Below are positions 33,878-51,661 of a DNA stretch of 64,000 nucleotides, in pieces. Source of the stretch: Methylocaldum marinum (GTDB taxonomy: Bacteria > Pseudomonadota > Gammaproteobacteria > Methylococcales > Methylococcaceae). How positions within the stretch are numbered: the stretch's first letter is position 1; each line of letters begins with the position of its first letter. The stretch is taken from contig NZ_AP017928.1 of NCBI RefSeq assembly GCF_003584645.1, positions 212,981 to 276,980 of the forward strand, given 5' to 3'. The notes beneath the pieces are model-generated. The model was not told the origin of the DNA and made no database searches. It saw nothing but the letters and a program-made list of their open reading frames with translations. The position numbers and the translations under genes were made by a program.

Positions 33878-34882
33878 AGACATTATCGGAAACCACCTTT
33901 CATAACCGGAACAGAGGAAAAGGCCGGCTATCAATAACTCTGGTTTCGGCAGTAGCTCCTGTGATTGTGCAGGCCGCAGGCTAATTCAATGACGACATCG
34001 TCGTAGCCTTCCTTGGTGTTCCTGAACACGTCTTTGACGACGCGGCACCGCTTGATTCCCGAGAGGATGTGTTCGATGATCACGCGGATGCTTGAGTGGA
34101 GCCGGTTGGCCTCCTGGTCGTCGGCCGAAAGCCGGCCGTTGCGCGGCCTCTTCTTCGGCTGGTGGACTGTGACATTCGCCAGTTCGTGTCCCTGGAAGCC
34201 GCTGTCGCGATACAGCTCGACGCCGTCGGAGAACCGGGTCCCTTCTTCGTCGCAGATCTTCTTGTCGTGCTTCTTGCCCTCATGGGTCGAGCCCAAGTAC
34301 TTGACCTGCCGGTCCTCCAGGCCGCCGACAAGGTTGTTCTTCACGGTGTGGCATTTTTTTTACCGCTGTAGTGGATGCGTTGCCCCAGGTCGTTGACGGG
34401 GCGGTTGATGCGCCTTTCCGTTCCGTCTATGCCCAAGTCCTGCCGCGTCTCCTGCTCCAGCCTGGACAGCATCTCCTCGGTGAGCCGGGCGGGCTTGTGC
34501 CCGCGGGCGTCAAGTGTCTTGTTGAGCACCCTGCTCAACCGGTGGATCGTGAAGTTGGCCCGGGGTTGGCTCATGCCGAACAGATGCGCGATGACCTCTT
34601 GCAGAGGGTAGGTCTTCAGATAGAACAGGATGAACAGCAGCCGGTCGGCCATGCTCGCGATAATCGGCGGACGCCCTCCTTTAGTCAGGTTCCTGCCGGT
34701 TTCTTCGTCCCCTGTCGCCGCAAAAGAAACCAAGAGTTCCTCAAACTCGGAGGCCTTCAGACTGGTCATGGCCATCAATGTCCTCGGCTTTTGCTTCACA
34801 CCTTCGTAGGAAACCATACTCTTGCCCTTAGTTCTCTTCGTTATTCAATGACAGACTGCCATGCTAGTTTCCGATAATGTCT
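33878..34882 (-). mobile_element. Complete IS5-family element, copy 2 (1005 bp)
   Basis: Reverse-oriented copy of the element at 8921-9934, with the same AGACATTATCGGAAAC termini and only scattered differences. ATT lies on each side and may be a 3-bp target duplication. Excising the element with one ATT joins a short frame (ATG 33743) to a stop at 34938, so a small gene may have been hit; this is weak evidence. Confidence 0.88.
33931..34817 (-). CDS. IS5-family transposase, -1 frameshift on A8
   Basis: Same two-frame structure as in the other copy: first frame 34817-34341 with GIDGTERR, second to 33931 with DSGFQG and EHILSGIKR. The slippery A8 run (complement of the T8 at 34355-34362) is intact, giving YSGKKKCHTVKN after slippage. 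Differences from the first copy are single residues only (for example G for D in SYEGVKQ, R for L in IHRLSRV), so both are recent. Confidence 0.85.
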
Positions 34883-36021: not shown

Positions 36022-36384
36022 TCAGAATAACCATACTCGATAACCGGCATCCTCGAGCCCGAGGATATCAATTTGGCCAAAACTTTCTTGCGGTCCGGAA
36101 ATCAGGCTACAGACTTGTCCCGCCGACTCGGCGTGGCCGAATGCCCGGGCGCAATTCTCACAAGCGCCTCTAATGACCTCTTGCCGCAGAAGATCGTCAA
36201 ATAGACCATGCATAGCGTGGTCCGGCTGGGCCAGCGCGGCCGGCCAGAAGGTTCCTTCGGCCGCGAAGTAAACCTCCGCAACATCCCCACGATGAAGAGC
36301 CTGTTTGGCATGGACCAGGGCGTGGAAAACCCTCCCGGTTTCGCCGGAGCCCGAATACACCACAAATGCATGTTTCTTGGACAT
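36022..36384 (-). CDS. DsrE-family protein
   Basis: A 120-residue DsrE/YchN-fold protein. The start at ATG 36384 gives the usual N-terminal strand (KKHAFVVYSGSGETGRVFHA). The cysteine pair in RGACENCARAFG is a plausible persulfide-carrying site. DsrE proteins exchange sulfur with TusA. It sits with tusA-like, SnoaL-like and tautomerase genes on the minus strand, opposite to the TusD/C/B-like operon. Confidence 0.8.
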   Translation of the reverse strand: MSKKHAFVVYSGSGETGRVFHALVHAKQALHRGDVAEVYFAAEGTFWPAALAQPDHAMHGLFDDLLRQEVIRGACENCARAFGHAESAGQVCSLISGPQESFGQIDILGLEDAGYRVWLF

Positions 36385-36550
36385 TATAGATTTCTCCGTA
36401 GTATGTAAGGAAATGCCAACTGCGCGGCCGCCGCTCCCGTTAGAATAATCGCCTTGGCTATTACTCTCGGCGGCTTTCGTATATCTGGTCCCCACTGCCC
36501 CGTTCGAGCGACTCGATCTGTCCCACTTGAATTTAACTGCCGTCAAGGTC

Positions 36551-36754
36551 TTATAGGCGGGACTTCCGGAGTTCCGTGACGCTTTGGCCCCCAATGCCCC
36601 AGTTATCGGTTTCGATTTCATCGATCACCACTACCGTGGTTTGAGGGTTTTTACCTAATACTTCCATCAATAAATGGGTGACTCCTTGTATCAGTGCTGC
36701 TTTTTGCTCCGCAGTCGCACCTTCACGGGTAATTCTGATATTTACATAAGGCAT
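36551..36754 (-). CDS. 4-oxalocrotonate tautomerase-like protein
   Basis: A 67-residue protein. The ATG at 36754 places proline at position 2, which becomes the catalytic amino-terminal Pro1 after methionine removal. VNIRITREGATAEQKAALI and TVVVIDEIETDNWGIGG are characteristic of the 4-OT subfamily. Such small enzymes catalyse keto-enol tautomerisation and are frequent in degradative or natural-product clusters. It is the first gene of the leftward tautomerase-DsrE-SnoaL-TusA group. Confidence 0.88.
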   Translation of the reverse strand: MPYVNIRITREGATAEQKAALIQGVTHLLMEVLGKNPQTTVVVIDEIETDNWGIGGQSVTELRKSRL

Positions 36755-37026
36755 TGGTCTGATCCTTTTGATATTAGATACTTGCATGATGGACGAGATT
36801 GCGAACGATCCTCGTGGGACACTGAAAAATGTACAACAGGCGAATGACAAGTTTACGAGAGCGCTTGACGGTCCCGGAAAGCGGAGAGTGGCTCGCGGAC
36901 TCTCCTGTCTTGTTGGGATTCTGGCTATCTCGCCGACGTTTCATCAAACACAAAACGTCTTCGTTTTCTGCCCCGAGAAAGACTGTCGCGTTGCAGTGCG
37001 TTCCAGTGTGTGATGATTGCCTGTCT

Positions 37027-37183: not shown

Positions 37184-37750
37184 TTAAGCGGACCGCGACA
37201 GGCTCCCGGAATTCCGAATCGGTTCACTGGCGTTCTGGGGCGATTTTAGCCATTGACCGGGATTGCCAACCACGGTGACACCGGCGGGCACGTTCTTTAA
37301 AACCACGGCGTTCGACCCGATGCGTGCTTCATCGCCCACTTCTATCGGCCCGAGCACCTTTGCGCCGGCACCAATGAGTACGCCGTTGCCGATGGTCGGA
37401 TGGCGTTTGCCTTTTTTCCAACTCGTGCCGCCCAGAGTGACACCCTGGTACAGTGTGCAATCGTCCCCCATGACGACAGTCTCGCCGATGACGACACCCA
37501 TGCCGTGGTCGATGAACGTGCGGCGACCAATCTTAGCTCCCGGATGGATTTCGATCCCGGTTAGTCCACGTGCGAGATGAGCCAAAAAACGCGCCGGCCA
37601 ATGCCAGCCCATATTCCATAGGCGATGACTGACACGATGGATCAGAACGGCATGGACGCCCGGGTACGTAGTCAGAATTTCGAGATAAGATTTGGCCGCC
37701 GGGTCACGTTCAAAAATATAGCCAAATTCTTCTTTGATTCTTTTCAACAT
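37184..37750 (-). CDS. cysE: Serine O-acetyltransferase CysE
   Basis: A 188-residue, short-type serine acetyltransferase. After an alpha-helical N-terminal part comes the left-handed beta helix of hexapeptide repeats with [33 protein letters not shown] and [20 protein letters not shown], including the catalytic Asp-His pair. It makes O-acetylserine from serine and acetyl-CoA, the precursor of cysteine. Standing between the sulfur-transfer genes and the aaRS-like operon, it probably supplies cysteine to the pathway inferred here. Confidence 0.93.
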
Positions 37751-38554: not shown

Positions 38555-39663
38555 ATGAGTACGGATTCATTGGGATCCAATATTGCAATGGCCGACATAT
38601 CGAGCGGGTTTATAAAAGGTTGGCTTGAAAGTATCGAGTTTGACCAGGAGGATACGTATATAACTTTGCGGCGTGACGGACACTGCCATCGGATCCTTTG
38701 CCAGGCCGATCGTTCCTCCATATCGGAGGTTACTCCTCAAAGCATTGTCGAACTCACGATTTCGGCAGACGGTGACAAGTTGGTAGCCAATCATATTTCC
38801 GTCATTCATCGTGCGGAACCGCTCCCGATAGATCTCGATGCTCATGACGTGCTTGATCTGAACTTCCGCCATCTTACTATCAGAACAAGACGCATACAGG
38901 CGGCTGCGAAGTTCAGGCATCTGGTTCAGAAATATGCTCGTGAATATCTCGACGGTATAGGCTGCATCAATGTGCAAACCCCTATCATCACGGAAGCATC
39001 TTGTGTGTGCAGCGGCAGCGTTTTTACTTTTCCCTATTACGGCAAGCGGATAGGCACACTCATCCAAAGTCCATGGATGTATGCAGACGTACTAACCACG
39101 TCACTCGAACGCATATACGCATTAAATCCATCCTTCCGGCGCGAAAACGATGCCACCAATATCCATCTTGTGGAGATCTGGCAATTACAGGTGGATATTG
39201 CGTGGGCCACTAACGCCGATATTCTGCGGATTGAAGAAGATCTGATCCGGTATATCGCAAACAATTTGCTGGAACATCACGCTTCGCTCTATGCCGAGGC
39301 CGGTCTATCACCCAAGCATTTGGCAAATTTATACAAGCCATTTGAACGGGTCACCTACGAAGAAACTATTTCAATGTTGAACAAGAAAGGTGAGTCGATT
39401 ACGTATGGCGATGACTATTCAAAGCTGCAAAGCGAGGTATTGGCAAGCGCTTTCGATCGGCCGTTTTTCATCGTCAATTATCCGCAAAGCTTGAAAAACT
39501 TCTGGTTTACAGTATATGCAGACAGACCCGATCTGACGCCGTCGAATGACCTATTTGCTCACACCGGACACGGCGAATTGATCGGGGGCGGAACTCGGGT
39601 ATCTGACGCCGATCAGTTACGCCGAAATCTGGAGTACTTCGGACACGATGAAGAGGAGTTTAA

Positions 39664-41042
39664 CAGGCTGTTGATTTTCTCGGCCCCGGAAGCCGCATGA
39701 ATTCGTTGGATGGATCGCATAAAATAGGCATAACCGATTGTTTGTCATGGCAAAATGATATCATTTCAAGATACTTTGGACTCTTTCATGCGCGGCGCCG
39801 ACATCACCCAGCAAGAACTCTTCAGCTACCGAACCTTGGAAGACCGGATTCCCAAGGATCATCCCCTTCGGAAGCTCCGGGCCGTGGTCGACATTCTGCT
39901 GACCACGCTGGACTCGGAATTTGATGCCCTCTATGCCCGGACCGGCCGGGAATCGATTCCGCCGGAGCGGCTGCTGCGCGCCAGTCTCATCCAAGTCTTG
40001 TTCTCTGTCCGCTCCGAGCGGCAGTTGGTCCAGCAGATCGAATTCAATCTTTTGTACCGCTGGTTTGTCGGGCTGACCCTGGATGCCGAGGTCTGGGACC
40101 ACTCCACCTTCAGCGCCAACCGGGATCGGTTGCTGAACGAGCGGATTTCCCGGCTGTTTTTCGAGCGGGTCGTGTTGCTGGCGGAATGGCAGGACCTTTT
40201 GTCGGACGAGCATTTCTCGGTGGACGGCACGCTGATCCAGGCGTGGGCCTCCATGAAGAGCTTTGTGAAAAAGGATGGCAGCTCGCCTCCGCCGGAGGAC
40301 GGCGGCCGGAATCCGTCCGTCGATTTCAAGGGCGAAAAGCGCTCCAACGCGACCCACGCCTCGACCACTGATCCGGAGGCTCGCCTTTACAAGAAAAGCG
40401 AAGGGGATAAAGCTCAACTGTGCTTCATGGGCCATGCCCTGATGGAAAACCGGACCGGCCTGGTCGTGGATGTCGAGGTGACTCACGCCACCGGCACGGC
40501 GGAACGGGACGCGGCCAAGATCATGATCGGTCGCACCGTCACGAAGCCCGGCGCGACGGTCGGGGCGGACAAGGCTTACGACGTGCCGGAGTTCGTGCAA
40601 GCTCTCCGGGAGCAGCGGGTCACGCCGCATGTCGCCCGGAAGGAAAAAGGCTCCGCCATCGATGGCCGCACCACCCGACACGCCGGCTACCGGACCAGCC
40701 TGAAGAGGCGCAAGCGGGTGGAAGAAATCTTCGGGTGGTCGAAGACCGTGGGCGGGTTACGCCAGACCCGGTTCCGGGGTTTGAAGAAGGTGGCGGCCCA
40801 GACCGTGTTCACTTTCGCCGCCTACAACCTGACCCGGTTGGGTGGGCTGTTCGGCTGGCGATGGTCGACGGCCTAGGCGGGCGTCTGCCCAAAATTCGCC
40901 GAAAGGCGGCAAGAACCCCCAAGCGGGGGGATGAAAACCGGCTAGAACCGGGATTTCAGAGCTAAAAGGACCTTCAGCACTAAAAATTAAGCCGCCGATA
41001 AGGGGTAAAGCCGAAGGCATGGAGGCGAATTTCAACAGCCTG
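39664..41042 (+). mobile_element. IS5-family element (1379 bp) with TTAA target duplication
   Basis: Termini CAGGCTGTTGA and, at the right, TCAACAGCCTG. TTAA is present on both sides (39660-39663 and 41043-41046). Insertion into the aaRS-like gene is proven by the restored frame on removal. Confidence 0.9.
39755..40876 (+). CDS. IS5-family transposase (DUF772/DDE type)
   Basis: A 373-residue intact transposase. The N-terminal DUF772 domain (SYRTLEDRIPKDHPLRKLRA...SVRSERQLVQQIEFNLLYRW) is followed by the DDE domain: the first Asp in FSVDGTLIQAWAS, the second in GADKAYD and the Glu in KRVEEIFGWSK. The frame is uninterrupted, so the element may still be active. Confidence 0.93.
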   Translation: MISFQDTLDSFMRGADITQQELFSYRTLEDRIPKDHPLRKLRAVVDILLTTLDSEFDALYARTGRESIPPERLLRASLIQVLFSVRSERQLVQQIEFNLLYRWFVGLTLDAEVWDHSTFSANRDRLLNERISRLFFERVVLLAEWQDLLSDEHFSVDGTLIQAWASMKSFVKKDGSSPPPEDGGRNPSVDFKGEKRSNATHASTTDPEARLYKKSEGDKAQLCFMGHALMENRTGLVVDVEVTHATGTAERDAAKIMIGRTVTKPGATVGADKAYDVPEFVQALREQRVTPHVARKEKGSAIDGRTTRHAGYRTSLKRRKRVEEIFGWSKTVGGLRQTRFRGLKKVAAQTVFTFAAYNLTRLGGLFGWRWSTA

Positions 41043-41224
41043 TTAATTGGTTTCTCGATAGTCGCCGGTTCGGATGTGCCCCGCATTCAGGATTCTCCAT
41101 GGGGTTCGACAGAATTGTCGCGTTTTTCATGGGGGTAAGCGATATTCGTGAAGCGACCCTTTTTCCACGTGTTCCTTTTGGCCCGATAAAACCCTAATGA
41201 TCGATTCAAAGTGAAGGTTTTAAG

Positions 41225-42256
41225 ATGAAAATTAATACCAAGCTTCCGTCAGCCCTATTAGAGGCCGAGGTAGATTCAGTAGCTGCTTTCAAGCAGGCTC
41301 TGGACAGAGTGTTGCCGAAAGCAGAATCCCTGGCTAAGCGAGCTTTTTTGGACAATGATCGGCAAAGCTGGGAAGAGGTGCAGGAAGCGCTCTATGTCTT
41401 GAATACGGATGATATGGAACGGTTGACCGATCCGGCGAGCTGGCAAAGTATTTTGAATAAATGTATACGCAACATCTTGGAAAATATTCAGAATTCCGGA
41501 AGAACGCCTTACCAGCTGAAGCTGAAGGAGTCGTACACTTGTGATCGTGCGCTTCAATACCTCTATGAGGCCGCGACTGGGCATCGGATCAACACGCATC
41601 CGCTATTGATTTACATGGCTGAGAACGGTTTGCCTCAAGAAGTGGTCAGGACCTTTCTGGATAATTATTACGTCAATAACCGGCTTTTCCATTTACACCT
41701 CGCTACGCTCTGCCTTAATACCCCGCTGCATGCCCGCCACGATCTATCGACCAATCTTTATGATGAGCTGGGCGGCGACGAGGCTGAAATGGCTCATCCC
41801 TTATTGTTCCTGAGAAGCTATAACAGCATCGGTTTGTCCAAGGTAATTACGCCGCTAGCGGAGAGCATGTTCCTGCTAAATACCAAGGCCGCGTTTTCCC
41901 ATTTGTCGTCGGATTATCGAAAAGGTTTTGGTGGGTTCGGATTTATCGAAATCACGATGCCAAAACAGATGCGGTTCATTCTGGCCGGCCTGGAACGTTC
42001 GGGGTTGCCCAAGGCTGATTTGATTTTCTGGGACCTTCATATCACGGTGGACGAGCGCCATGGGGACACCTGGTTTGACGAGATGCGGGAGCTAATCACC
42101 ACGGAAGAAGATGCGAATATCATCTTTGATGGCGGCATGCGCCTCTTGGACGCGCGTGCGGCGTTCTATGACGGTGTCTGGCGTTACGCGCAGCCGCTTC
42201 TCGGCGTTCAGAGCACGCCGAGAAGGGCCGTAGCCTGCGAGGTTGGTGCGGTCTAA
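41225..42256 (+). CDS. Heme-oxygenase-like diiron oxidase (HDO, Haem_oxygenas_2 type)
   Basis: A 343-residue all-helical protein of the iron-containing redox enzyme family. Candidate iron ligands are E181 and H191 in NLYDELGGDEAEMAHPLL, and H272, D276 and H279 in FWDLHITVDERHGDTW; the spacing is that of UndA, BesC, SznF-type and FlcD-type HDOs. These use O2 for N-oxygenation, C-C cleavage or desaturation of amino-acid-derived substrates. It follows the aaRS-like gene by 27 bases. With the FMO at 44482 it is the likely chemical core of the pathway. The substrate is unknown. Confidence 0.85.
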   Translation: MKINTKLPSALLEAEVDSVAAFKQALDRVLPKAESLAKRAFLDNDRQSWEEVQEALYVLNTDDMERLTDPASWQSILNKCIRNILENIQNSGRTPYQLKLKESYTCDRALQYLYEAATGHRINTHPLLIYMAENGLPQEVVRTFLDNYYVNNRLFHLHLATLCLNTPLHARHDLSTNLYDELGGDEAEMAHPLLFLRSYNSIGLSKVITPLAESMFLLNTKAAFSHLSSDYRKGFGGFGFIEITMPKQMRFILAGLERSGLPKADLIFWDLHITVDERHGDTWFDEMRELITTEEDANIIFDGGMRLLDARAAFYDGVWRYAQPLLGVQSTPRRAVACEVGAV

Positions 42257-42401: not shown

Positions 42402-42472
42402 CCAGTTAGAGTCATAGACGGTCTGGATATGGATGGCCTTCGCGCTTGTCAGACCGCTTTTTGGGACCACCG

Positions 42473-43786
42473 ATGGCGTTTTCATATGTCCGCTGGATAT
42501 CTACTATATCGATATTGTTATATTCCCTTTCCGCCCGATCGGAGAATTGGCTAATGCGGGATGGCACGGAGCTTCCAGGCGCGAAAAAAACGCGGGTTGT
42601 TGGCCTGATTCAGCCAACCTATCAGTCGGACTATTCCGACGCGCTTTCCGATTTGGAGGGCAACGCGGAATCTTTAAATGATAAGCGGGCATTCTATTCG
42701 GGCATTGCACCAGGCTACAGTTCAACCTCGTCGTTTTATCTATTTCGAGTGCGGTTCGGCGTGCGTGGTTTGGTGGGAGAGCACGTAAACTACGAGCTTG
42801 TGGGAGAGTACGGGGCAAATGCCCTGACAACAATACCGGGCGGCAGCAACAACGTTGCTTTGGCGGAAGGTTCGGTGACGTTGAATTATATTCGAGGACT
42901 CCGAACCCGGTTTGGCTTGTTCAAGGTCCCTGGCTCGGAGGAATCCCTTCGCAGCGCTATCGATTACGTCAATTTTACTCAGGTCACCCAATTTCTGATC
43001 AACTCGCAGCCTCTGAAGTTCAGCGATGGACTTCTGGAATACGAAAGTAGTGGTTTGCCGGCGGTACCGCGATCAGGGGTGAGAGCCTTCCGGGACACCG
43101 GTGTTCAAATATTCGACGCTTTTTCACTGAATAACTTCGAATACGGCTACGCTTTTATGGTTGGGTCCGGGAATACGCTTAACCAGACCGATGACAATAA
43201 TCGCCTGACGCAATATGGCCGGCTGCAGATGTCCTATCTGTTTCATACCCCGAACTCGACTTTTAAGACAGAGAGGCCGGATTTTACCTTTTTTGTGTGG
43301 GGACAGCGGGATTTCCCCACGTTCGAAAACAAGTCCTATGAGCAAGAACGCTGGGGAACCGGGTTTACTTTTTTCCGCGACGGATACCACTTAAATGCAG
43401 AATACATGTACGGGCGCGGCATGATTTATCTAGCCCCTTACTATGTCAACGATCCGGGGCGCCTGTTCACGAGCAAGCGCAATGACGCATACGGCTGGTA
43501 TATAGACGTCGGTAAATTCATTACCAAGAATATTCAGCTGGAAGCTAGATATGATGTCTTCGAACAGGACGTTGAAAGTAATCCGTATTCGAGGGAGTTT
43601 AATACGCTAACCCTTGGTGCTCAGTATTACTTTAGCAGAAATACGCGGATTGCCGTGAATTATGAAATCAGAGATTACAAGCTCGGAGGGGGTAATGGCG
43701 GTGGTAGTATCGACAGCGCCAATGCGAAACGTGTCAGCGACGCGATCGGCAATCGGCTGGGTGTGCAGTTAACCTTGAAATTTTGA
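42473..43786 (+). CDS. Outer-membrane porin (phosphate-selective porin O/P-like)
   Basis: A 437-residue beta-barrel protein. I start it at ATG 42473 so that a signal peptide (SYVRWISTISILLYSLSARS) is formed. The remainder alternates hydrophobic and polar residues with aromatic girdles (FYLFRVRFGVRGLVGEHVNY, GLRTRFGLFKVP) and ends in phenylalanine (LGVQLTLKF), the usual barrel-assembly signal. It resembles OprO/OprP-type porins. Within this operon it may admit a precursor or take up the metal-bound product. The downstream HAD gene follows after nine bases. Confidence 0.8.
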   Translation: MAFSYVRWISTISILLYSLSARSENWLMRDGTELPGAKKTRVVGLIQPTYQSDYSDALSDLEGNAESLNDKRAFYSGIAPGYSSTSSFYLFRVRFGVRGLVGEHVNYELVGEYGANALTTIPGGSNNVALAEGSVTLNYIRGLRTRFGLFKVPGSEESLRSAIDYVNFTQVTQFLINSQPLKFSDGLLEYESSGLPAVPRSGVRAFRDTGVQIFDAFSLNNFEYGYAFMVGSGNTLNQTDDNNRLTQYGRLQMSYLFHTPNSTFKTERPDFTFFVWGQRDFPTFENKSYEQERWGTGFTFFRDGYHLNAEYMYGRGMIYLAPYYVNDPGRLFTSKRNDAYGWYIDVGKFITKNIQLEARYDVFEQDVESNPYSREFNTLTLGAQYYFSRNTRIAVNYEIRDYKLGGGNGGGSIDSANAKRVSDAIGNRLGVQLTLKF

Positions 43787-43795
43787 AGAAATGCC

Positions 43796-44485
43796 ATGCT
43801 AAAGGCCGTAGTGTGTGACATCGGACATGTTATAGCGCGCGGTTCCATACTAAATGTCGTGCTGGCCGAAATAGGCCGCCACGATTGCGCAAAAAAGTTA
43901 TACGACGCTCAGCGGTTCTATACCTGTAGCACCGCCGAGTTTGATAGTTGGGTGAGGGAGGTTATCGAGGAAAAAATAGCAGCCCTGCAAGGATTGTCGT
44001 TTAGAGAGCTGAAACCGCTGCTATCCCATGTCTCGATGACACCGTGCTTCGACGATTTTATCCGCAGAACCGGTCAACTCGGCTTGCCCGTATTGCTGGT
44101 AGGTGCCGTGCCGGCAATGATAGCTCGCCTTCTTCTCCAACTATGGAATATCGAACATCCGCACGTATCGGTTATGGGGACCGAGCTTATTATCGACAAC
44201 GAAAGGATCGCGGGTGTCAGATCCGTGTGTACACCCACTAAGAAGCTGGAAGCCGTTGAGCGCTGGCTAGAGCTTAATGGGATTGAATCCGAGGACGCCA
44301 TTTATATCGGCGACTCGGTTGGGGATCTCATCGTTATGAGCTCTTTTCCCAAAAGAAACCGCATTGCCATCAATGCCTCGATCCAGTGGGTGCGGGCATT
44401 TTGTAATTACTGCGTAGAAGACAGCTTTTCGGAAATCGCTGCCGTGGTCGAGGCACTGACGCTCGGGGAGAATAGGGCTTCATGA
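43796..44485 (+). CDS. HAD-superfamily protein with altered catalytic motif I
   Basis: A 229-residue protein with a HAD fold. Motif IV is intact (YIGDSVGD) and a motif III lysine is present (PTKKLEAVERWL). Motif I, however, reads CDIGHV where phosphatases have DxDxT/V: the second, acid/base aspartate is glycine. Motif II (LVGAVPAM) lacks the usual Ser/Thr. This argues against simple phosphatase activity and for a different reaction or a binding role. Its last four bases overlap the FMO gene start (ATGA), so translation is coupled. Confidence 0.75.
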   Translation: MLKAVVCDIGHVIARGSILNVVLAEIGRHDCAKKLYDAQRFYTCSTAEFDSWVREVIEEKIAALQGLSFRELKPLLSHVSMTPCFDDFIRRTGQLGLPVLLVGAVPAMIARLLLQLWNIEHPHVSVMGTELIIDNERIAGVRSVCTPTKKLEAVERWLELNGIESEDAIYIGDSVGDLIVMSSFPKRNRIAINASIQWVRAFCNYCVEDSFSEIAAVVEALTLGENRAS

Positions 44486-46137
44486 ATATTCAGCAAACTC
44501 ATTTGAAACGGTACGATACCTTTTCGGGTATTTCCGACCTTTCTTCGCTAGCACCGGTTTTTACTAGGCTTGATACCGAGACTAAAACTTCGACTTCGGT
44601 TACTCGGCCGACCTTCTTTTTTGCAGAGTCCGGCTCTTTTTTGCTTGAAACACCGAATCGCGATTTTTATCTGACACCGGAGAGCGGGGTGTTGGTGCGA
44701 TCCGGTCAGGAGATAACAATAAGATGTTTATCCGCGGGGATGCTGGGCAATACGATCGTCGCTCCTACCGAGGTAAATTCCCTTTTTTCTTCCGATGTAC
44801 AGTTCGATATCAAACTCATGTCGGAAGTCTATGACATCATAAAACGACCGTATTCGGTATCTGCTGTCGGAGGAGTGAAATTACTCTTCGGTCGAATCGG
44901 CGATATTGTGCCGGGCGGCGTGCTGGTCGCCGGATTCGACGGGGATAAATGCCTATTCGCTGTTCCTTACGATTCCCCGCCTCAACCCCGTGCATGCGAT
45001 GTCTTGGTGATCGGGGCAGGGCCGATCGGTCTAGGAATAGGTGCGAGCACCGCAAATAATAGTCTCGATACGATTATACTCGGGGAACCACTTTCTTTCT
45101 GGTGGCAAAATATTCTCCCCCAGCCCCTACGCTCACCTTTGTCGGCATCGAGTATATACATCGACCGCGACAGCTACGATCTGTCCGCCTTTTGTAAGCA
45201 CGGAGAAATCAATCCGGCAGGCGTACTTCAATTTTCGGTGTTTCTTGCCTATGCGCAATCCGTACTGAATCGTTACGAACATCTGGTTCGGACGGAACGG
45301 GTTGATGGGCTCCGCCGTACCGCGGATGGTTGGCTGATTGATGTTACCACGCCTTACGGAGCGGTGACCTATTCCGCCAACTCGGTTGTGGTCGCGACGG
45401 GTTTGTTACCGATGGCGAATATCCCCGGTCAAGTCAGCCCAGGAAAAGCGGTTCGACATGCTTCGGCGGTAAATCGCTTTGATCTCGAAAGACCGGACAT
45501 CCAGGCCATTGCCGTCGTTGGAGGAGGGCAATCGGCGTTGGAATTCGCCCTTCATGCCTGGAAGTGCGGCAAGGACGTTTCTGTCGTTATCCGCGAGTCG
45601 GAACTGATGTTCAGGAATCTACATGAGCCGGGCCATTACTTGTATAAGGAGCTGGCAAAGCGCTCCGAGCGGATGACGCCATGGTTATCCGGCCCGCTCA
45701 AATCGAAGCTTTTGTCCTTTCTTCTGCGAGGTACCGTAGAGCCGCGTCTTCGGGACGAAATTCTCAATAGCGACATTAAGATTTTGGGTAATTTTCGAAT
45801 CGCCGGCCTGGAAAGGTTTGGGAGCCGCATTCGCCTGCAGGCCGAAGACAAGCGTGAGTTACATCTGGATAGCGTCATTTTCGGAACCGGATATAGCTGG
45901 ACGCTTGAGCGTCTCGGCTTTTTGAAAAATCTGCTTGGGCTCATTAAAAGCGAGGCGGGGATGCCTCGGCTGACGGCCGCGTGTGAATCATCAATACCGG
46001 GTTTATTCTTTGCCGGTTATGGTGCCATGCGGCGGGTCGGATTCAAATCGCAGTTCATACAGGGAAGCAGGCTAATTACACCGGCCATATTGAAAGAAAT
46101 ACTCCGTCGAAGAGAGTGTAAAAATGTCGCTGGGTAA
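44482..46137 (+). CDS. FMO-like flavin-dependent monooxygenase with N-terminal extension
   Basis: A 551-residue protein. Residues 1-170 form an extra domain rich in beta strands, not seen in ordinary FMOs. The FAD-binding Rossmann motif GAGPIGLGIGAS starts near 178, and a second dinucleotide motif VVGGGQSALEFA lies near 344, probably for NAD(P)H. GTGYSWTLERLG near the end matches the ATGY segment of N-hydroxylating monooxygenases (SidA/PvdA, BVMO-like). It probably oxidises an amine or sulfur of the pathway intermediate. It overlaps both neighbours (4 and 14 bases). Confidence 0.82.
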   Translation: MNIQQTHLKRYDTFSGISDLSSLAPVFTRLDTETKTSTSVTRPTFFFAESGSFLLETPNRDFYLTPESGVLVRSGQEITIRCLSAGMLGNTIVAPTEVNSLFSSDVQFDIKLMSEVYDIIKRPYSVSAVGGVKLLFGRIGDIVPGGVLVAGFDGDKCLFAVPYDSPPQPRACDVLVIGAGPIGLGIGASTANNSLDTIILGEPLSFWWQNILPQPLRSPLSASSIYIDRDSYDLSAFCKHGEINPAGVLQFSVFLAYAQSVLNRYEHLVRTERVDGLRRTADGWLIDVTTPYGAVTYSANSVVVATGLLPMANIPGQVSPGKAVRHASAVNRFDLERPDIQAIAVVGGGQSALEFALHAWKCGKDVSVVIRESELMFRNLHEPGHYLYKELAKRSERMTPWLSGPLKSKLLSFLLRGTVEPRLRDEILNSDIKILGNFRIAGLERFGSRIRLQAEDKRELHLDSVIFGTGYSWTLERLGFLKNLLGLIKSEAGMPRLTAACESSIPGLFFAGYGAMRRVGFKSQFIQGSRLITPAILKEILRRRECKNVAG

Positions 46138-47568
46138 ACTCGCCGGCCTGTTTCCGCTTGCCGCGTTCGGTGCAGTCCTTGGGACGTCGTTCGAGAATCT
46201 GGCCGAGACCGGACTGTTGGTCAAACTTTCCTTGCTTGCATTTGCCTTGGTGTTTGGGTCGATTTTGGCCAAACCCATTACATGGTTGTATTCCGCCAGC
46301 CTGTTGGGTCTCGCCGTAACGTCGATAGTTTACTTCGACATCCCTTACGGAGTATGGCTCGCAAAAACCAGTAGTCTCGTGGACATCGCCCCGCTTCTCT
46401 TGTGTGTGTCTCTCTTGTCCCTGGTATTTAAGGAAGACCCATGGATCAAATCGTTCGGCGAGATGCTGAATTCCCCTGGGAAATGGGCGCCGTATAGCAA
46501 AGCGGTTTTTAGCACGATGTTGGTGGCCCCGATATTGAATATGGGCTCGATTGCAGTGATGAGTGTAGCTCTGAGTCGCGGCGAATTGCGTCAAGCACAT
46601 TATGCGCGGGCCGTTGCGTCCGGCGCTGCGACCGCCATGCTGTGGTCGCCTACATTTGCTCCCATCGCTTTGGTTATGGGATTCTTCCCGTCAATTCGCT
46701 GGACCGGGACCCTGTGGGTTACGCTCCCCGTTGCTACACTGGGCTTGCTAATTCATGGACTTGTATTTGCCGAACGGGACCAGCGCGAGAGAACGGTTTG
46801 CAAACGCGATTCGAAATCCCGCTCCCCATATCTTCCGTCTATTTGGTTAATTCTTTTTATCGCTCTGCTTACCGGATTGCTGACATTCTCCAAAGTCAGC
46901 AGCACCCAGGCGATTTCTCTGGCCGCGGCGAGCCTGGTTTTTTTTTTATTGTGGTTCAGGGGCCGAAGCGGCTCGGGGCATCACTGTGCGGCGTTCTAGA
47001 ATTATCGAGCAGAAACTGGCAGCGAATTTCAGGAGATGCGGCCCTGCTTTTTTGCGCCGGTTTTCTCGCGGCGGTATTGCGGCGACCGGAGATCAACGGC
47101 GTACTGCTCACCCTGCCGGCGGTGAGTTGGTTGATCTGCCTTCCTCCATTGGTATTGATTACCGCCGTACTACCGCTTTTCAATCGTTTGCCGATTCATC
47201 CTGTCATCGTTTTCAGCATCTTTGCTCCTATTTTGAGCGGTGGGGTAACCGAGCCGGAGGTATATCTTCATTATGCAGCATGGGTGGTGTACTGGCATGT
47301 CAGCCTATTGATTTCTCCGGTCTCAATTATCAATGTGACGATTGACAGCGTTTTTCCAGAACAGAAATTTAGCTTGCGTGCAAGCAAGTCGCTATGGTCA
47401 TCGTTCAGTATGGCGATCTTGGCGTGCGGTTTCCTAATGGGAATCTATTATGCGGTAGAAACAGGTATCGACATTGAAAAGATTATGACGATATGTCGTC
47501 GCCTAGTATCAGATATTGACTTTTATTATTGGAGAGTTATATGTCGTCGCCTCGAGTGGGCATGCTAA
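46124..47568 (+). pseudogene. Multi-pass membrane protein, frameshifted
   Basis: Frame one (46124-46999) encodes about eight membrane helices (AGLFPLAAFGAVLGTSF, APLLLCVSLLSLVF, AVASGAATAMLWSPTFAPIA). After the T9 run at 46939-46947, or the G4 at about 46959, the reading must change by one base to continue as GPKRLGASLCGVLELSS and AALLFCAGFLAAVLRRPEIN, with further helices to 47568. The total would be about 480 residues, like an ion-coupled permease. A homopolymer sequencing error is possible. It overlaps FMO at the start and the TusD-like gene at the end, so it belongs to the operon, perhaps as transporter. Confidence 0.7.
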
Positions 47569-47888
47569 TCGGAACCGGGCCAACCGCCATGAAAACCTCG
47601 CTGGCGCTAAGTCTTGCAAAAGGCCTATGTCAGCGCGGTGCCTTCGTTGAAATATTCTTCTACGGAGACGGTTTGCACAACACTGAAACCGGGGTATCTG
47701 TCAAGAATATCATGAGGGATGTAGAACAGGTTGCCAGCATGGGGGCATCGTTGTCAGTATGTGTCAATATGGCTAAGAATAGAGGTATTGTAGCCAATAA
47801 TATTGCCAAACATGTCAAGATTGAAAGCTTGATCAGCTTTTCTTCTATATTGTCCGATTCCGATTGTGTTGTTGCGGTAAATCCTTAG
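47541..47888 (+). CDS. TusD/DsrE-like sulfur relay protein
   Basis: A 115-residue protein with TTGGAG before ATG 47541. It has the TusD/DsrE pattern: VGMLIGTGPTAMKTSLALSL at the start, VEIFFYGDGLHN, and SLSVCVNMAKNRGI with C74 at the active-site cysteine position of TusD. TusD accepts persulfide sulfur from TusA. It is followed directly by TusC- and TusB-like genes, the normal order of tusDCB, but here within an operon with a ferredoxin and desulfurase. Confidence 0.85.
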   Translation: MSSPRVGMLIGTGPTAMKTSLALSLAKGLCQRGAFVEIFFYGDGLHNTETGVSVKNIMRDVEQVASMGASLSVCVNMAKNRGIVANNIAKHVKIESLISFSSILSDSDCVVAVNP

Positions 47889-47900
47889 CGGGCAGAGTTT

Positions 47901-48248
47901 ATGAGAAGGAAGATCGTTTTCTTGATGTCATCCGATCCTCTAGCTTCTGATATGGGGGTACAGATGGCTCGTATGGCAATATCGATAGGGCTTGACCACG
48001 ATGTCAGCATGGTATTCAAAGGGGGCGCGAGAAGGCTGCTCCAGAAACCCACGGTATTTCGCAGCGGCATGCATAATTTCGACGGCGAGTCGGCGTTTCT
48101 GGATGAGCTGGAGATTCCGCGCTATCAATATGCGGAGTTTTCAGAGGACGAGGGCTTGGTCGAAACCGACAATCACAATATCTCGGCCATCGGGGGACGC
48201 GAGTACTGCGATTTACTGCGCAGTGCCGATGTGATCGTATCAATATGA
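47901..48248 (+). CDS. TusC/DsrF-like protein
   Basis: A 115-residue protein of the DsrE/F fold, starting MRRKIVFLMSSDPLASDMGV and containing VSMVFKGGARRLLQ, the equivalent of the VFVDDGV region of TusC. No active cysteine is conserved, as usual for TusC. It is the structural middle subunit of a DCB-type heterohexamer by analogy. Its stop overlaps the next start by four bases. Confidence 0.8.
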   Translation: MRRKIVFLMSSDPLASDMGVQMARMAISIGLDHDVSMVFKGGARRLLQKPTVFRSGMHNFDGESAFLDELEIPRYQYAEFSEDEGLVETDNHNISAIGGREYCDLLRSADVIVSI

Positions 48249-48490
48249 GGCGGAACATGAGAGTGCTCGTAATCACCGATGAGAAACATTTATCTGTCGC
48301 AGATGTATTAGTGGAGGGTGATGTTTTATTCGTCACGGGAACCGCCGCAGGGATTCGGCGGGAATTTGGCGTTCCCGCTTTTAAGCTCGATGATGGCATC
48401 AATATTAATGCGAACGGCCTTCCCTTGGCCGGAATCGATAACGAATTGGTTACGGCGGTATTGAAATCAGATTCCGTCATTTTTCTATAG
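48245..48490 (+). CDS. TusB/DsrH-like protein
   Basis: An 81-residue protein (MRRNMRVLVITDEKHLSVAD...SDSVIFL) that is short and all alpha/beta, matching DsrH/TusB in length, in its position as third gene after TusD- and TusC-like genes, and in the DALLFTG-like segment DVLFVTGTAAG. Sequence support alone is moderate; gene order makes it convincing. Confidence 0.7.
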   Translation: MRRNMRVLVITDEKHLSVADVLVEGDVLFVTGTAAGIRREFGVPAFKLDDGININANGLPLAGIDNELVTAVLKSDSVIFL

Positions 48491-48498
48491 AGTGCGCC

Positions 48499-48843
48499 AT
48501 GAGCAATATCAACTGTGAAAAGGCTTCTGAAGAACGGGTAGAAGATCGGATATTCCGGACCCATATCTTTTTCTGTACTAATAGCCGCGATAATCGGACG
48601 CGCAGCTGCGGCGGATCCGGAGGTCAGGATCTATTTCTTTATGCAAAGCAGAAGGTCCGTAAAAGCGGGGATAGCGCCGCAGGCGTTCGAATCAATTCGG
48701 CTGGATGCCTTGGGCGCTGTGAAAAGGGCCCGTGCGTGGTGATTTATCCGGAAGGCGCCTGGTACAGCGTGAACAACGCCGCTGATGTGGACACAATTCT
48801 CCATCATCACGTGGCTCCGGTATCCGAGGGCGGCGTGGACTGA
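48499..48843 (+). CDS. Thioredoxin-like [2Fe-2S] ferredoxin
   Basis: A 114-residue protein with the four cluster ligands of the thioredoxin-like ferredoxin family: HIFFCTN, a second cysteine in RTRSCGGSGG, and the C-terminal pair in GCLGRCEKGPCVVIYPEGAWY. The last motif is diagnostic. It transfers single electrons and could feed the diiron oxidase or take part in sulfur reduction. It lies eight bases downstream of the TusB-like gene. Confidence 0.88.
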   Translation: MSNINCEKASEERVEDRIFRTHIFFCTNSRDNRTRSCGGSGGQDLFLYAKQKVRKSGDSAAGVRINSAGCLGRCEKGPCVVIYPEGAWYSVNNAADVDTILHHHVAPVSEGGVD

Positions 48844-48987: not shown

Positions 48988-50445
48988 ATGGATTTCTCCA
49001 CTTTGTTTTTTGGTGCCGACACGTCCTACTTGACTGCAGCGGGCGTGCGCAAGCGATTCCACTATCTGGATTCTACGGCGTCGACCCTGATGTTCAAAAA
49101 CGCTCTGCGCGCCAAGGAAGCTGCATTGAGTCATTACGGAAATATTCATTCGAGTTGTCATTTCAATGCCAGGATCAGCCAGAAGTTCTTCGATCTGTCT
49201 CAAAGAGAAGTATTGAGGTTCTTCAATGTGGATGAGTCGACCCACTCCGTTATTTTTATGGGGTCTGGAGTGACTGCGGCGCTCAATTTTCTCGCGCGCA
49301 CGATGCAGGAAGGATTCGGGGAAAAGTCTACCGTTGCCATTTCTCCGATGGAGCACCATTCCAACGATCTGCCCCATCGAAAGTATTCGGGCAAATTGCT
49401 GTTGCTGCCCTTGCTGTCTACTGATGGCGAGCTGGGTTGTATTGACGTGCAAGGCAGCCGAGACCTCATAGCAGAACATGCCTCGGACCTGCGATACGTC
49501 AGTGTTACCGGGGTGTCCAACGTGACCGGGATCATCAATCCCATTGCGCAGTTGTCGGAAATCTGCCGGGATTACGACGTACCGTTGATTGTCGACGGCG
49601 CCCAGATGGTTGCTCATGTTCCCTTGGATTTGTCGGCGGGAGCACTGGCGAACATCAGTGCGTTGGTGTTTTCTTCGCATAAGATCTATGCGCCGGGAGG
49701 TCCTGGCGTCATCGTGGCGCGCAATGAATTTCTGAAACAGCTGCCCGCGGTGGAGCTTGGGGGCGGCATGGTAGGGAAGGTACATCGCCAAGGTTATGAG
49801 CTCGCGACGTCGCTTAGCGGTAGATTTCAGGCCGGAACCCCGAATATTCTTGGGGCGGTGGAACTCGGGTGCGCTCTAAACATGCTTATGGACATAGGCA
49901 TGGAGAAGGTACAGGCGCATGAACGGGCACTTATGGATCTCGTCTGGGGTGTGCTGACAGAACATCCTAAAGTGAAGATTTACGGTTCCAAGAACCGTAC
50001 AACCGCGCCCCGTGCCGGTGCAATATCGTTCAACATCACGGGAGTCGAACATGGCTTGGCAGCGATGATTCTGAATGATTATCACTGTGTAGCGGTACGA
50101 AACGAATGCTTTTGTGCGCATCCTTACGTTCGCGACCTGATGCTGGATGACCTATGGAATATTCCGGTGGATGGGCTTACCGAAGATCAAGTCCGGGTTC
50201 GGGTTTTGGAAATGAGCGGCATGCTTCGGGTCTCTTTCGGACTTTACAATACGGCCGAGGATGTTCTTGCCATGGCCGAAGGCGTTGGCGACATCGCCGA
50301 AAATGTGAATTCCTACCGGCGTTTGTATGTTTCAAAAGGTGACGGAAACTTCGAGGCGATCGATGGCGGGAGCGATCTCAATGCCATTGATCAGGACATG
50401 ATTTTCGGTCGTAGGCCTACGTTTCCAGGCAGCTCTATTCGATAG
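48988..50445 (+). CDS. SufS-like cysteine desulfurase/class V aminotransferase
   Basis: A 485-residue PLP enzyme, longer than SufS (about 406) by a C-terminal tail of about 60 residues. PLP site: VFSSHKIYAPGGPG with K232. Active-site cysteine loop: VRNECFCAHPY with C376, corresponding to the HCAQP loop of SufS/CsdA. It should convert cysteine to alanine and form an enzyme persulfide that can be passed to TusA/TusD-like proteins encoded nearby. Its place between ferredoxin and MFS genes makes it the sulfur source of the cluster. Confidence 0.87.
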   Translation: MDFSTLFFGADTSYLTAAGVRKRFHYLDSTASTLMFKNALRAKEAALSHYGNIHSSCHFNARISQKFFDLSQREVLRFFNVDESTHSVIFMGSGVTAALNFLARTMQEGFGEKSTVAISPMEHHSNDLPHRKYSGKLLLLPLLSTDGELGCIDVQGSRDLIAEHASDLRYVSVTGVSNVTGIINPIAQLSEICRDYDVPLIVDGAQMVAHVPLDLSAGALANISALVFSSHKIYAPGGPGVIVARNEFLKQLPAVELGGGMVGKVHRQGYELATSLSGRFQAGTPNILGAVELGCALNMLMDIGMEKVQAHERALMDLVWGVLTEHPKVKIYGSKNRTTAPRAGAISFNITGVEHGLAAMILNDYHCVAVRNECFCAHPYVRDLMLDDLWNIPVDGLTEDQVRVRVLEMSGMLRVSFGLYNTAEDVLAMAEGVGDIAENVNSYRRLYVSKGDGNFEAIDGGSDLNAIDQDMIFGRRPTFPGSSIR

Positions 50446-50455
50446 CGGAACGAGC

Positions 50456-51661
50456 ATGGACGCGGCTGATTCGCGTAGCGGAGGCGGTCTTCTTGAAGCC
50501 TGTTTCGGCTTTCTGGCGCTGACGATTGCGATAGGCATCGGTCGCTTTTCCTTTACGCCCATCGTTGCGCTGATGAAGCACCGCATGGTGCTGTCGGATG
50601 CCGTACTGGGCACTGTGGCGTCGGCCCACCATCTGGGGTATCTCGCCGGGGTGGTGATCGCCTTTAAGGTGGCTTTGGATTACCGACGGTCGGCACAGCT
50701 CATAATTCTTCTTTGCGCTGTGAATGCGGGGACTTTCCTGCTATTTCCTTCTCTTTCGGACTCGGTTCCTGTCTGGTTGGCTCTTAGGGTGATTTCAGGA
50801 GCGGCCAGCGGTGTGTCGTTCATGCTGGCCGTCAATGCGGTGGCCGGTGCCTTGGCGGCACACCAGAGGACTTGGTTGCCATTCTTCAGTTTTTCCGGCG
50901 TAGGTGTCGGCATTGTTATCGGCGCACTGGGGTGCCTCGCGGCAGGGGATGATTGGCGTGACGCCTGGCGTATCTGCGGCGGAATTGCCGGTTTCGGCTG
51001 CGTGCTGTTGATGGGGCTGTTTTATGGCGCAGATTGGCAACGGCCTTTACCAGTGAAGGTTCCCTCCCGTCATGGCGCAAACCGCCAGCGCTATCCGTTC
51101 TTTCTCCTGTTTACCTATACCGTTGAAGGTGGGGCATACATCGTCACCGCGACCTTCTTAGTGCTGGGGATCACAGAGTCGGGCATCGTTCAGGCTGAAT
51201 ATGCGGGGTGGTATTGGGTCGGCTTTGGCCTGGTTACGGCACCATCGACATTATTGTGGGCCAAAGTGGTGTCCCGCTTTGGCTATGGATATTCCCTGGC
51301 AGCGGCCTACTGGCTCCAGATGGCCGGGGCGCTGCTGGCGACGTCCGAGCAAATATACGCTTTGATGGTTGCGACGTTACTGCTTGGGATTACCTTCATG
51401 GGTATCACTTCGATAGCTATCTTATGGGCGCGGACTTTAAACCCCAGGGTGGAAACCCTAGCCATGCAGCTCACGCTCGTTTATTCCATAGCGCAATTTG
51501 CGACGCCCGTCTTGGCCGGGATTTCTTTACAATCTACCGGCAGTGTGAATCAGGCCTATCTGGCGAGCGCCGTCGCACTTTGGTTTGCGGGAGTACTCAT
51601 CTGGCGAGCTGCCTCCGGCACGAAAGATCAGCCGAACGTGGTCAGGAATCGCAGTGTGTAG
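50456..51661 (+). CDS. MFS transporter, YbfB/YjiJ family
   Basis: A 401-residue protein with about twelve transmembrane helices. The first helix and loop (FLALTIAIGIGRFSFTPIVA) are diagnostic for the YbfB/YjiJ (DUF1228) branch of the major facilitator superfamily. The start is 11 bases after the desulfurase stop, so the gene is the end of the operon. Such proteins export amino-acid-like and toxic small molecules; here export of the pathway product is the simplest idea. Confidence 0.88.
   Translation: MDAADSRSGGGLLEACFGFLALTIAIGIGRFSFTPIVALMKHRMVLSDAVLGTVASAHHLGYLAGVVIAFKVALDYRRSAQLIILLCAVNAGTFLLFPSLSDSVPVWLALRVISGAASGVSFMLAVNAVAGALAAHQRTWLPFFSFSGVGVGIVIGALGCLAAGDDWRDAWRICGGIAGFGCVLLMGLFYGADWQRPLPVKVPSRHGANRQRYPFFLLFTYTVEGGAYIVTATFLVLGITESGIVQAEYAGWYWVGFGLVTAPSTLLWAKVVSRFGYGYSLAAAYWLQMAGALLATSEQIYALMVATLLLGITFMGITSIAILWARTLNPRVETLAMQLTLVYSIAQFATPVLAGISLQSTGSVNQAYLASAVALWFAGVLIWRAASGTKDQPNVVRNRSV

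Follow-up and report, generated by a model that had tools for sequence, protein, structure and literature searches.

An insertion sequence interrupts a synthetase-like gene

In this study we analysed a stretch of 64,000 nucleotides of Methylocaldum marinum (contig NZ_AP017928.1, positions 212,981 to 276,980), referred to here as the window, in which a gene encoding a class II synthetase-like protein (gene A) is split by an insertion sequence (IS). The interrupted gene and the element comprise the following features, numbered from the first letter of the window:

38555-39663, plus strand: 5' part of gene A, which resembles asparaginyl-tRNA synthetase (AsnRS); it holds residues 1-369 and the beginning of codon 370 and ends in TTAA
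39660-39663, strand not applicable: left copy of the TTAA target duplication
39664-41042, plus strand: IS5/IS1182-type insertion sequence of 1379 bp, with 16 full-length copies in the genome
39755-40876, plus strand: transposase of the insertion sequence, 373 aa, with DUF772 and DDE_Tnp_1 domains
41043-41046, strand not applicable: right copy of the TTAA target duplication
41047-41197, plus strand: 3' part of gene A with motif 3 (HSGFSMGFDR)

An initial annotation, made from the letters of the window, had described a precise insertion at the head of a gene cluster. Both points were borne out, as the 1379 bp are bordered by TTAA on either side and gene A stands first, with genes B to L following it. 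The element has all features of the IS5/IS1182 type, namely a DDE transposase, terminal inverted repeats (CAGGCTGTTGA... at both ends) and a short target duplication. Its transposase scored well above the NCBIfam cut-off for IS5 (NF033581, 288 bits versus 140), and the next model was IS1182. The genome consists of one contig of 6.09 Mb, and seven of the 16 full-length copies in it are 100% identical. Exact duplications of 4 bp (TTAA, TTAG or GTAA) flank seven of the eight copies inspected, while at the eighth a neighbouring second copy prevented the flanks from being delimited. The IS family is active, and its transposition into the synthetase-like gene is no assembly curiosity and is recent, since the interrupted gene shows no signs of decay. 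As first suggested, the IS may silence the downstream genes or drive them; a sequence scan for promoter and terminator signals found none above shuffled controls. Another apparent IS, consisting of two adjacent frames of a different-looking transposase, is located at 33931-34817 on the minus strand.

The restored protein aligns across the junction

Joining the two flanks with one TTAA retained restored a frame of 419 residues in which HSGFSMGFDR occupies residues 383-392, past the junction, so that motif 3 is indeed stranded beyond the element as first proposed. The unjoined gene encodes 381 aa without motif 3, of which about 369 are native residues and the remainder is an IS-derived tail. Judging from this predicted product, gene A as it stands is very likely dead. 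The joined protein matched AsnRS structures continuously over residues 75-413, across the junction at residue 370, with E values of 2e-64 for the AsnRS of P. horikoshii (1x54) and 1e-58 for that of T. thermophilus. Moreover, it aligned seamlessly with six intact orthologues (51-57% identical), five of which came from a scan of genome contigs and the sixth (locus L051) from a later genome search. Poor alignment at this site had been named as a possible objection to the reconstruction, and the protein aligned well through it. The window protein retained 124 of the 131 columns that are invariant in the first five orthologues (94.7%), and 22 of the 23 such columns after the junction. In the same test the leave-one-out scores of the orthologues themselves were 86-99%. 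As the window protein falls within this range, there is no decay of gene A, which thus appears to have been under normal constraint until very recently.

The family is a sister group of AsnRS with a rebuilt substrate pocket

We calculated a maximum-likelihood tree from six AsnRS, six AspS2, three bacterial AspRS, two LysRS and the six family members then known. The family members formed one clade (100/100), which was sister to AsnRS (99/97) and whose stem was long, at 1.5 changes per column. The tree, which had been suggested as a check, thus sets the family apart from AsnRS and AspRS, and together with the structural matches it agrees with the original assignment to the class II synthetases of AsnRS type. 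The likeness to AsnRS (PDB 1x54, 5zg8) includes the catalytic core, motifs 1-3 and an OB-like N-terminal domain, and the two proteins are about 26% identical when aligned by structure. The N-terminal domain comprises about 90 residues and is OB-like in a low-confidence model of the orthologue from Thiogranum (L018; shallow alignment, mean pLDDT 58), which had AsnRS as its best match and was used for the overall fold only. However, the scores of curated AsnRS models stayed under their cut-offs (TIGR00457, 221 of 343 bits; PRK03932, 250 of 414 bits), and several diagnostic residues are unlike those of AsnRS.

A site table set these residues in all seven members of the family beside those of AsnRS, LysRS and the two types of AspRS. 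The residues that serve ATP, Mg, the adenylate and the side chain (R195, E197, H204, D332, E341, R348 and R392) are retained in all seven. In the same seven proteins the Glu of the flipping loop is replaced by V151, the Gln of QSPQ by W174, and the Glu or Asp after motif 2, which we take to be among the contacts of the substrate alpha-amino group, by Q212; this mapping of the substrate pocket is alignment-based. In the AspRS of P. vivax, the flipping-loop Glu (E352) contacts the amino group of aspartate, and Q374 contacts aspartate (PMC12262901). Furthermore, the active-site lid of the family contains an invariant C150-V-C152, in which C152 takes the place of a Gly or Ser of the Asn and Asp enzymes. 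The canonical AsnRS and AspRS rows in the comparison invariably have the anticodon-contact residues R, F and Q of the OB fold (the Arg column is absent from one row truncated at its N terminus), but these residues are lost in all seven family members and not consistently replaced. The initial annotation had regarded the SPWMY and GFDR residues as unusual and as hints at a non-canonical role. The Trp of SPWMY is an invariant feature of the family, whereas GFDR is ordinary and its D is also found in AspRS and LysRS. The non-canonical role itself gains support on other grounds, namely the replacement of the anticodon and alpha-amino contacts in seven of seven sequences.

The retained adenylation site, the lost anticodon contacts and the rebuilt amino-end pocket together argue for a tRNA-independent adenylation of an acid that has no normal free alpha-amino group. 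Asparagine synthetase A (AS-A) and the archaeal enzyme AS-AR, the known non-translational relatives in the same part of the tree, are likewise adenylating enzymes derived from AspRS/AsnRS that work without tRNA (PMC9437257). Following their example, the gene A enzyme might form an amide by activating aspartate or a relative of it, with ammonia or a small amine as the acceptor. We regard this as very improbable, even though the NCBIfam model of asparagine synthetase A matched with an E value of 2e-45. This match reached only 155 bits versus a cut-off of 368, and the other NCBIfam models scored lower. Moreover, the OB domain present here is absent from AS-A, the alpha-amino contacts expected for aspartate are gone, and the context of the family differs from that of AS-A, as the cluster described below is oxidative and sulfur-related.

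Gene A heads a recurrent cluster of oxidative and sulfur-related genes

The genes that follow gene A, together with two genes upstream of it, are listed below:

36022-36621, minus strand: gene P, second DsrE protein
36551-36850, minus strand: gene Q, tautomerase
41225-42256, plus strand: gene B, haem-oxygenase-like dimetal oxidase
42446-43786, plus strand: gene C, Porin_O_P-type outer-membrane porin
43796-44485, plus strand: gene D, HAD-IB-type phosphatase
44482-46137, plus strand: gene E, flavoprotein with an additional beta domain at the N terminus and an amine N-hydroxylase fold (residues 167-549)
46124-47568, plus strand: gene F, polytopic membrane protein, putative transporter, whose reading frame breaks at ten consecutive T (T10, 46938-46947)
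47529-47888, plus strand: gene G, TusD/DsrE-like sulfur carrier
47901-48248, plus strand: gene H, DsrE-family (TusC-like) protein
48245-48490, plus strand: gene I, small protein at the position of DsrH/TusB, with weak resemblance
48499-48843, plus strand: gene J, thioredoxin-like 2Fe-2S ferredoxin
48988-50445, plus strand: gene K, SufS-family cysteine desulfurase-like protein
50456-51661, plus strand: gene L, MFS_4 transporter

Many of these genes recur near the orthologues of gene A. Genes E, G and H were found at all seven loci, B, F and J at six, C at five and D at four; B is missing beside the Acinetobacter gene (L014). The SufS-like gene K occurs at two loci only, and Q and P at some. P has orthologues adjoining the cluster in L015 and L051, and Q has orthologues there, about 66% identical, in L017, L018 and L051. 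The module therefore probably extends upstream to P and Q (36022-36850, minus strand), past the coordinates given in the initial annotation.

In gene B, which was aligned to HrmI, BesC and FlcD, three His and three carboxylate metal ligands (E181, H191, E242, H272, D276 and H279) are invariant in the four aligned sequences; this is the ligand motif of dimetal haem-oxygenase-like oxidases (PMC13108848, PMC11363339). Its nearest solved relatives include HrmI and FlcD, the latter from the biosynthesis of fluopsin C. The fluopsin C pathway (FlcA-E) resembles the cluster in its haem-oxygenase-like oxidase FlcD, which is near gene B, and it leads to a metal-binding product that is oxidised at S and N (PMC11363339). 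In contrast, FlcA-E comprises neither a synthetase nor a sulfur relay, and FlcD, unlike gene B with its complete dimetal ligands, carries the mononuclear E-H-X-H-V-R motif.

The predicted structure of E (mean pLDDT 62) matched 6xbb, which has the ornithine/diamine N-hydroxylase fold, with a Z score of 26.2 and an rmsd of 3.5 over 352 aligned residues, and YpdA-type reductases also matched the model with Z scores of about 22. By its modelled fold, E may be described as amine-N-hydroxylase-like, with N-hydroxylation as its putative reaction. The N-terminal domain, which was screened for a cupin with a hydrazine-synthase-like reading in mind, gave one weak Cupin_6 match, in L016 only (E 0.064), and the structure comparison covered the other part of the protein.

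A class II synthetase next to an amine N-hydroxylase-like enzyme is at most what the cluster has in common with valanimycin biosynthesis, in which seryl-tRNA sets the precedent for a reaction of this kind (PMC9437257). By analogy, gene A could encode a second, unusual tRNA synthetase, and the charged tRNA would donate its acyl group to a hydroxylamine. The full-length architecture with its modelled OB-like N-terminal domain would suit such an enzyme, as would the presence of E as a partner, and the OB-fold losses, taken alone, would still allow an enzyme to charge a tRNA whose anticodon it does not touch. Nevertheless, we consider this explanation improbable. R, F and Q have disappeared from every family member with nothing consistent in their place, the window contains no tRNA gene, and no VlmA-like transferase was apparent on inspection of the translated cluster genes. 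In addition, the valanimycin pathway employs a SerRS instead of an AsnRS, follows a tRNA-dependent route and has no sulfur relay.

Genes G to I appear to resemble a TusDCB relay, firmly so for G and less so for H and I. G matched DsrE with an E value of 1.5e-8 and has the TusD-like conserved Cys, which is embedded in SVCVNMAKNRG in the window and in AVCSNMAKARG in L051. H was assigned to the DsrE family through its orthologues (E 6e-9 in L014), and for I a weak match to DsrH was obtained with the L016 counterpart only (E 0.04). With its TusD-like Cys and with small DsrE-family proteins encoded in a row next to a desulfurase-like gene, the cluster is similar to TusBCD/DsrEFH systems. However, their partners TusE and MnmA were not seen, and the sulfur acceptor of the relay is presumably a cluster enzyme and not a tRNA. 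A hexapeptide acyltransferase resembling serine acetyltransferase (CysE) is encoded at 37184-37750 on the minus strand, where it adjoins the cluster, and could supply cysteine. A defence system was also considered and rejected, as PADLOC returned only generic desulfurase matches to K.

In gene F, coding continues in another frame after the T10 run, and the counterpart in L015 also seems to be spread over two overlapping frames. The break may be a second lesion, a site of transcriptional slippage or a sequencing error. Two further genes were observed at other loci. In Acinetobacter colistiniresistens, a nitronate monooxygenase-family gene lies directly 3' of the intact orthologue (L014, 11228-12289), and the Chromatiales cluster includes a MOSC-domain protein (L015, 10062-10529). 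Proteins with a MOSC domain act on sulfur carriers or on N-hydroxylated compounds.

The family is rare and is not the source of host AsnRS

Seven members of the family are known, and they are rare and scattered. One was found among 398 genomes of the phylum, one among 251 genomes of the order and one among 176 Acinetobacter genomes. Further searches gave two hits among 20 genomes in the order of L018, two among 369 in the class of L016, which yielded the new locus L051, and one among 31 in the order of the L051 genome. Gene A was not found in the genomes of three other members of the genus or in 34 further genomes of the same taxonomic family that were searched, so that the genus offered no empty insertion site for comparison, and a plasmid collection contained only ordinary AsnRS/AspRS with 24-30% identity. 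This distribution suggests that the family has spread horizontally, and the GC content of the cluster region, about 50% versus 60-65% at the start of the window, adds to it. The patchy occurrence and the lower GC content, together with the frame break in gene F, would also fit an ordinary AsnRS copy without special function that was acquired horizontally, was decaying and was then hit by the IS. This explanation is hardly credible, as it is already contradicted by conservation across species: the seven sequences, although diverged, all carry the same fixed residue replacements, the invariant columns are largely kept in the window protein, and the neighbour genes recur in distant hosts.

Besides gene A, the only tRNA-synt_2 proteins of the host are AspRS, LysRS and an EpmA-like protein, and GatB is present. 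Since the host has GatB and no AsnRS besides gene A, its Asn-tRNA is presumably made by transamidation. In the five other carrier genomes found first, the tRNA-synt_2 matches, judged by size and score and not individually named, correspond to AspRS, LysRS and EpmA-like proteins, and no separate AsnRS stands out. Gene A had initially been taken for a paralogue of a host AsnRS, a view that must be abandoned for this genome. The absence of another AsnRS along with the amidotransferase route had been named in advance as an argument against that annotation, and a host with GatB and without another AsnRS is what we found; nevertheless, gene A is still not the AsnRS of the host, because this living strain carries it in broken form and the anticodon-contact residues are gone from its family. 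The IS insertion can be regarded as a natural knockout, in which gene A is dispensable in a GatB-encoding host that may make its Asn-tRNA by transamidation.

A proposed role in the biosynthesis of a nitrogen- and sulfur-containing metabolite

Considering its residues and its genomic context, the family probably consists of tRNA-independent acyl-adenylating enzymes that act outside translation, in a pathway for an N- and S-containing metabolite, and that have been inactivated in this strain. The substrate of the gene A enzyme would be a carboxylic acid, though not ordinary Asn or Asp, which the enzyme would convert to its acyl-AMP and then hand over to a small nucleophile; this would constitute the first step of the pathway. 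E is a candidate source of a hydroxylamine, oxidation could be carried out by B, and mobilised sulfur could be provided by K, G to I and J. By removing motif 3 the IS would eliminate the enzyme, and the pathway would probably be switched off at the activation step.

A more specific possibility, compatible with the data but rather doubtful, is that the enzyme is a synthase of a thioacid or of a thiohydroxamate precursor. Here, an acid that lacks a free alpha-amino group would be adenylated and the adenylate captured by a persulfide, which the SufS-like protein and the TusDCB-like relay would deliver to C150/C152 of the lid for attack on the adenylate. The resulting thioacid would be joined to, or oxidised with, the hydroxylamine made by E, and B would process the product. 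If this applies, it would to our knowledge be the first AsnRS-derived sulfur-transfer enzyme.

Returning to the broader reading of a tRNA-independent acyl-adenylating enzyme, the rebuilt pocket, the CxC of the lid and the sulfur relay point to an undescribed activation chemistry. The product is probably a new N- and S-containing metabolite and possibly a metal chelator. In the open-access literature searched, which leaves most subscription journals outside, neither a cluster of a synthetase with a haem-oxygenase-like oxidase nor such a synthetase family was described. The family is therefore apparently undescribed, and its novelty is provisional. The reuse of synthetase paralogues outside translation is of a known kind. 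For the Asp/Asn branch, a review of aminoacyl-tRNA synthetase duplications lists only AS-A/AS-AR and ErdS (PMC9437257). On a Macrococcus plasmid, a gene annotated as 'aspartate-tRNA(Asn) ligase' (L045, 2869-4152) adjoins methyltransferase and MFS genes and may be a further synthetase that belongs to a small-molecule cluster.
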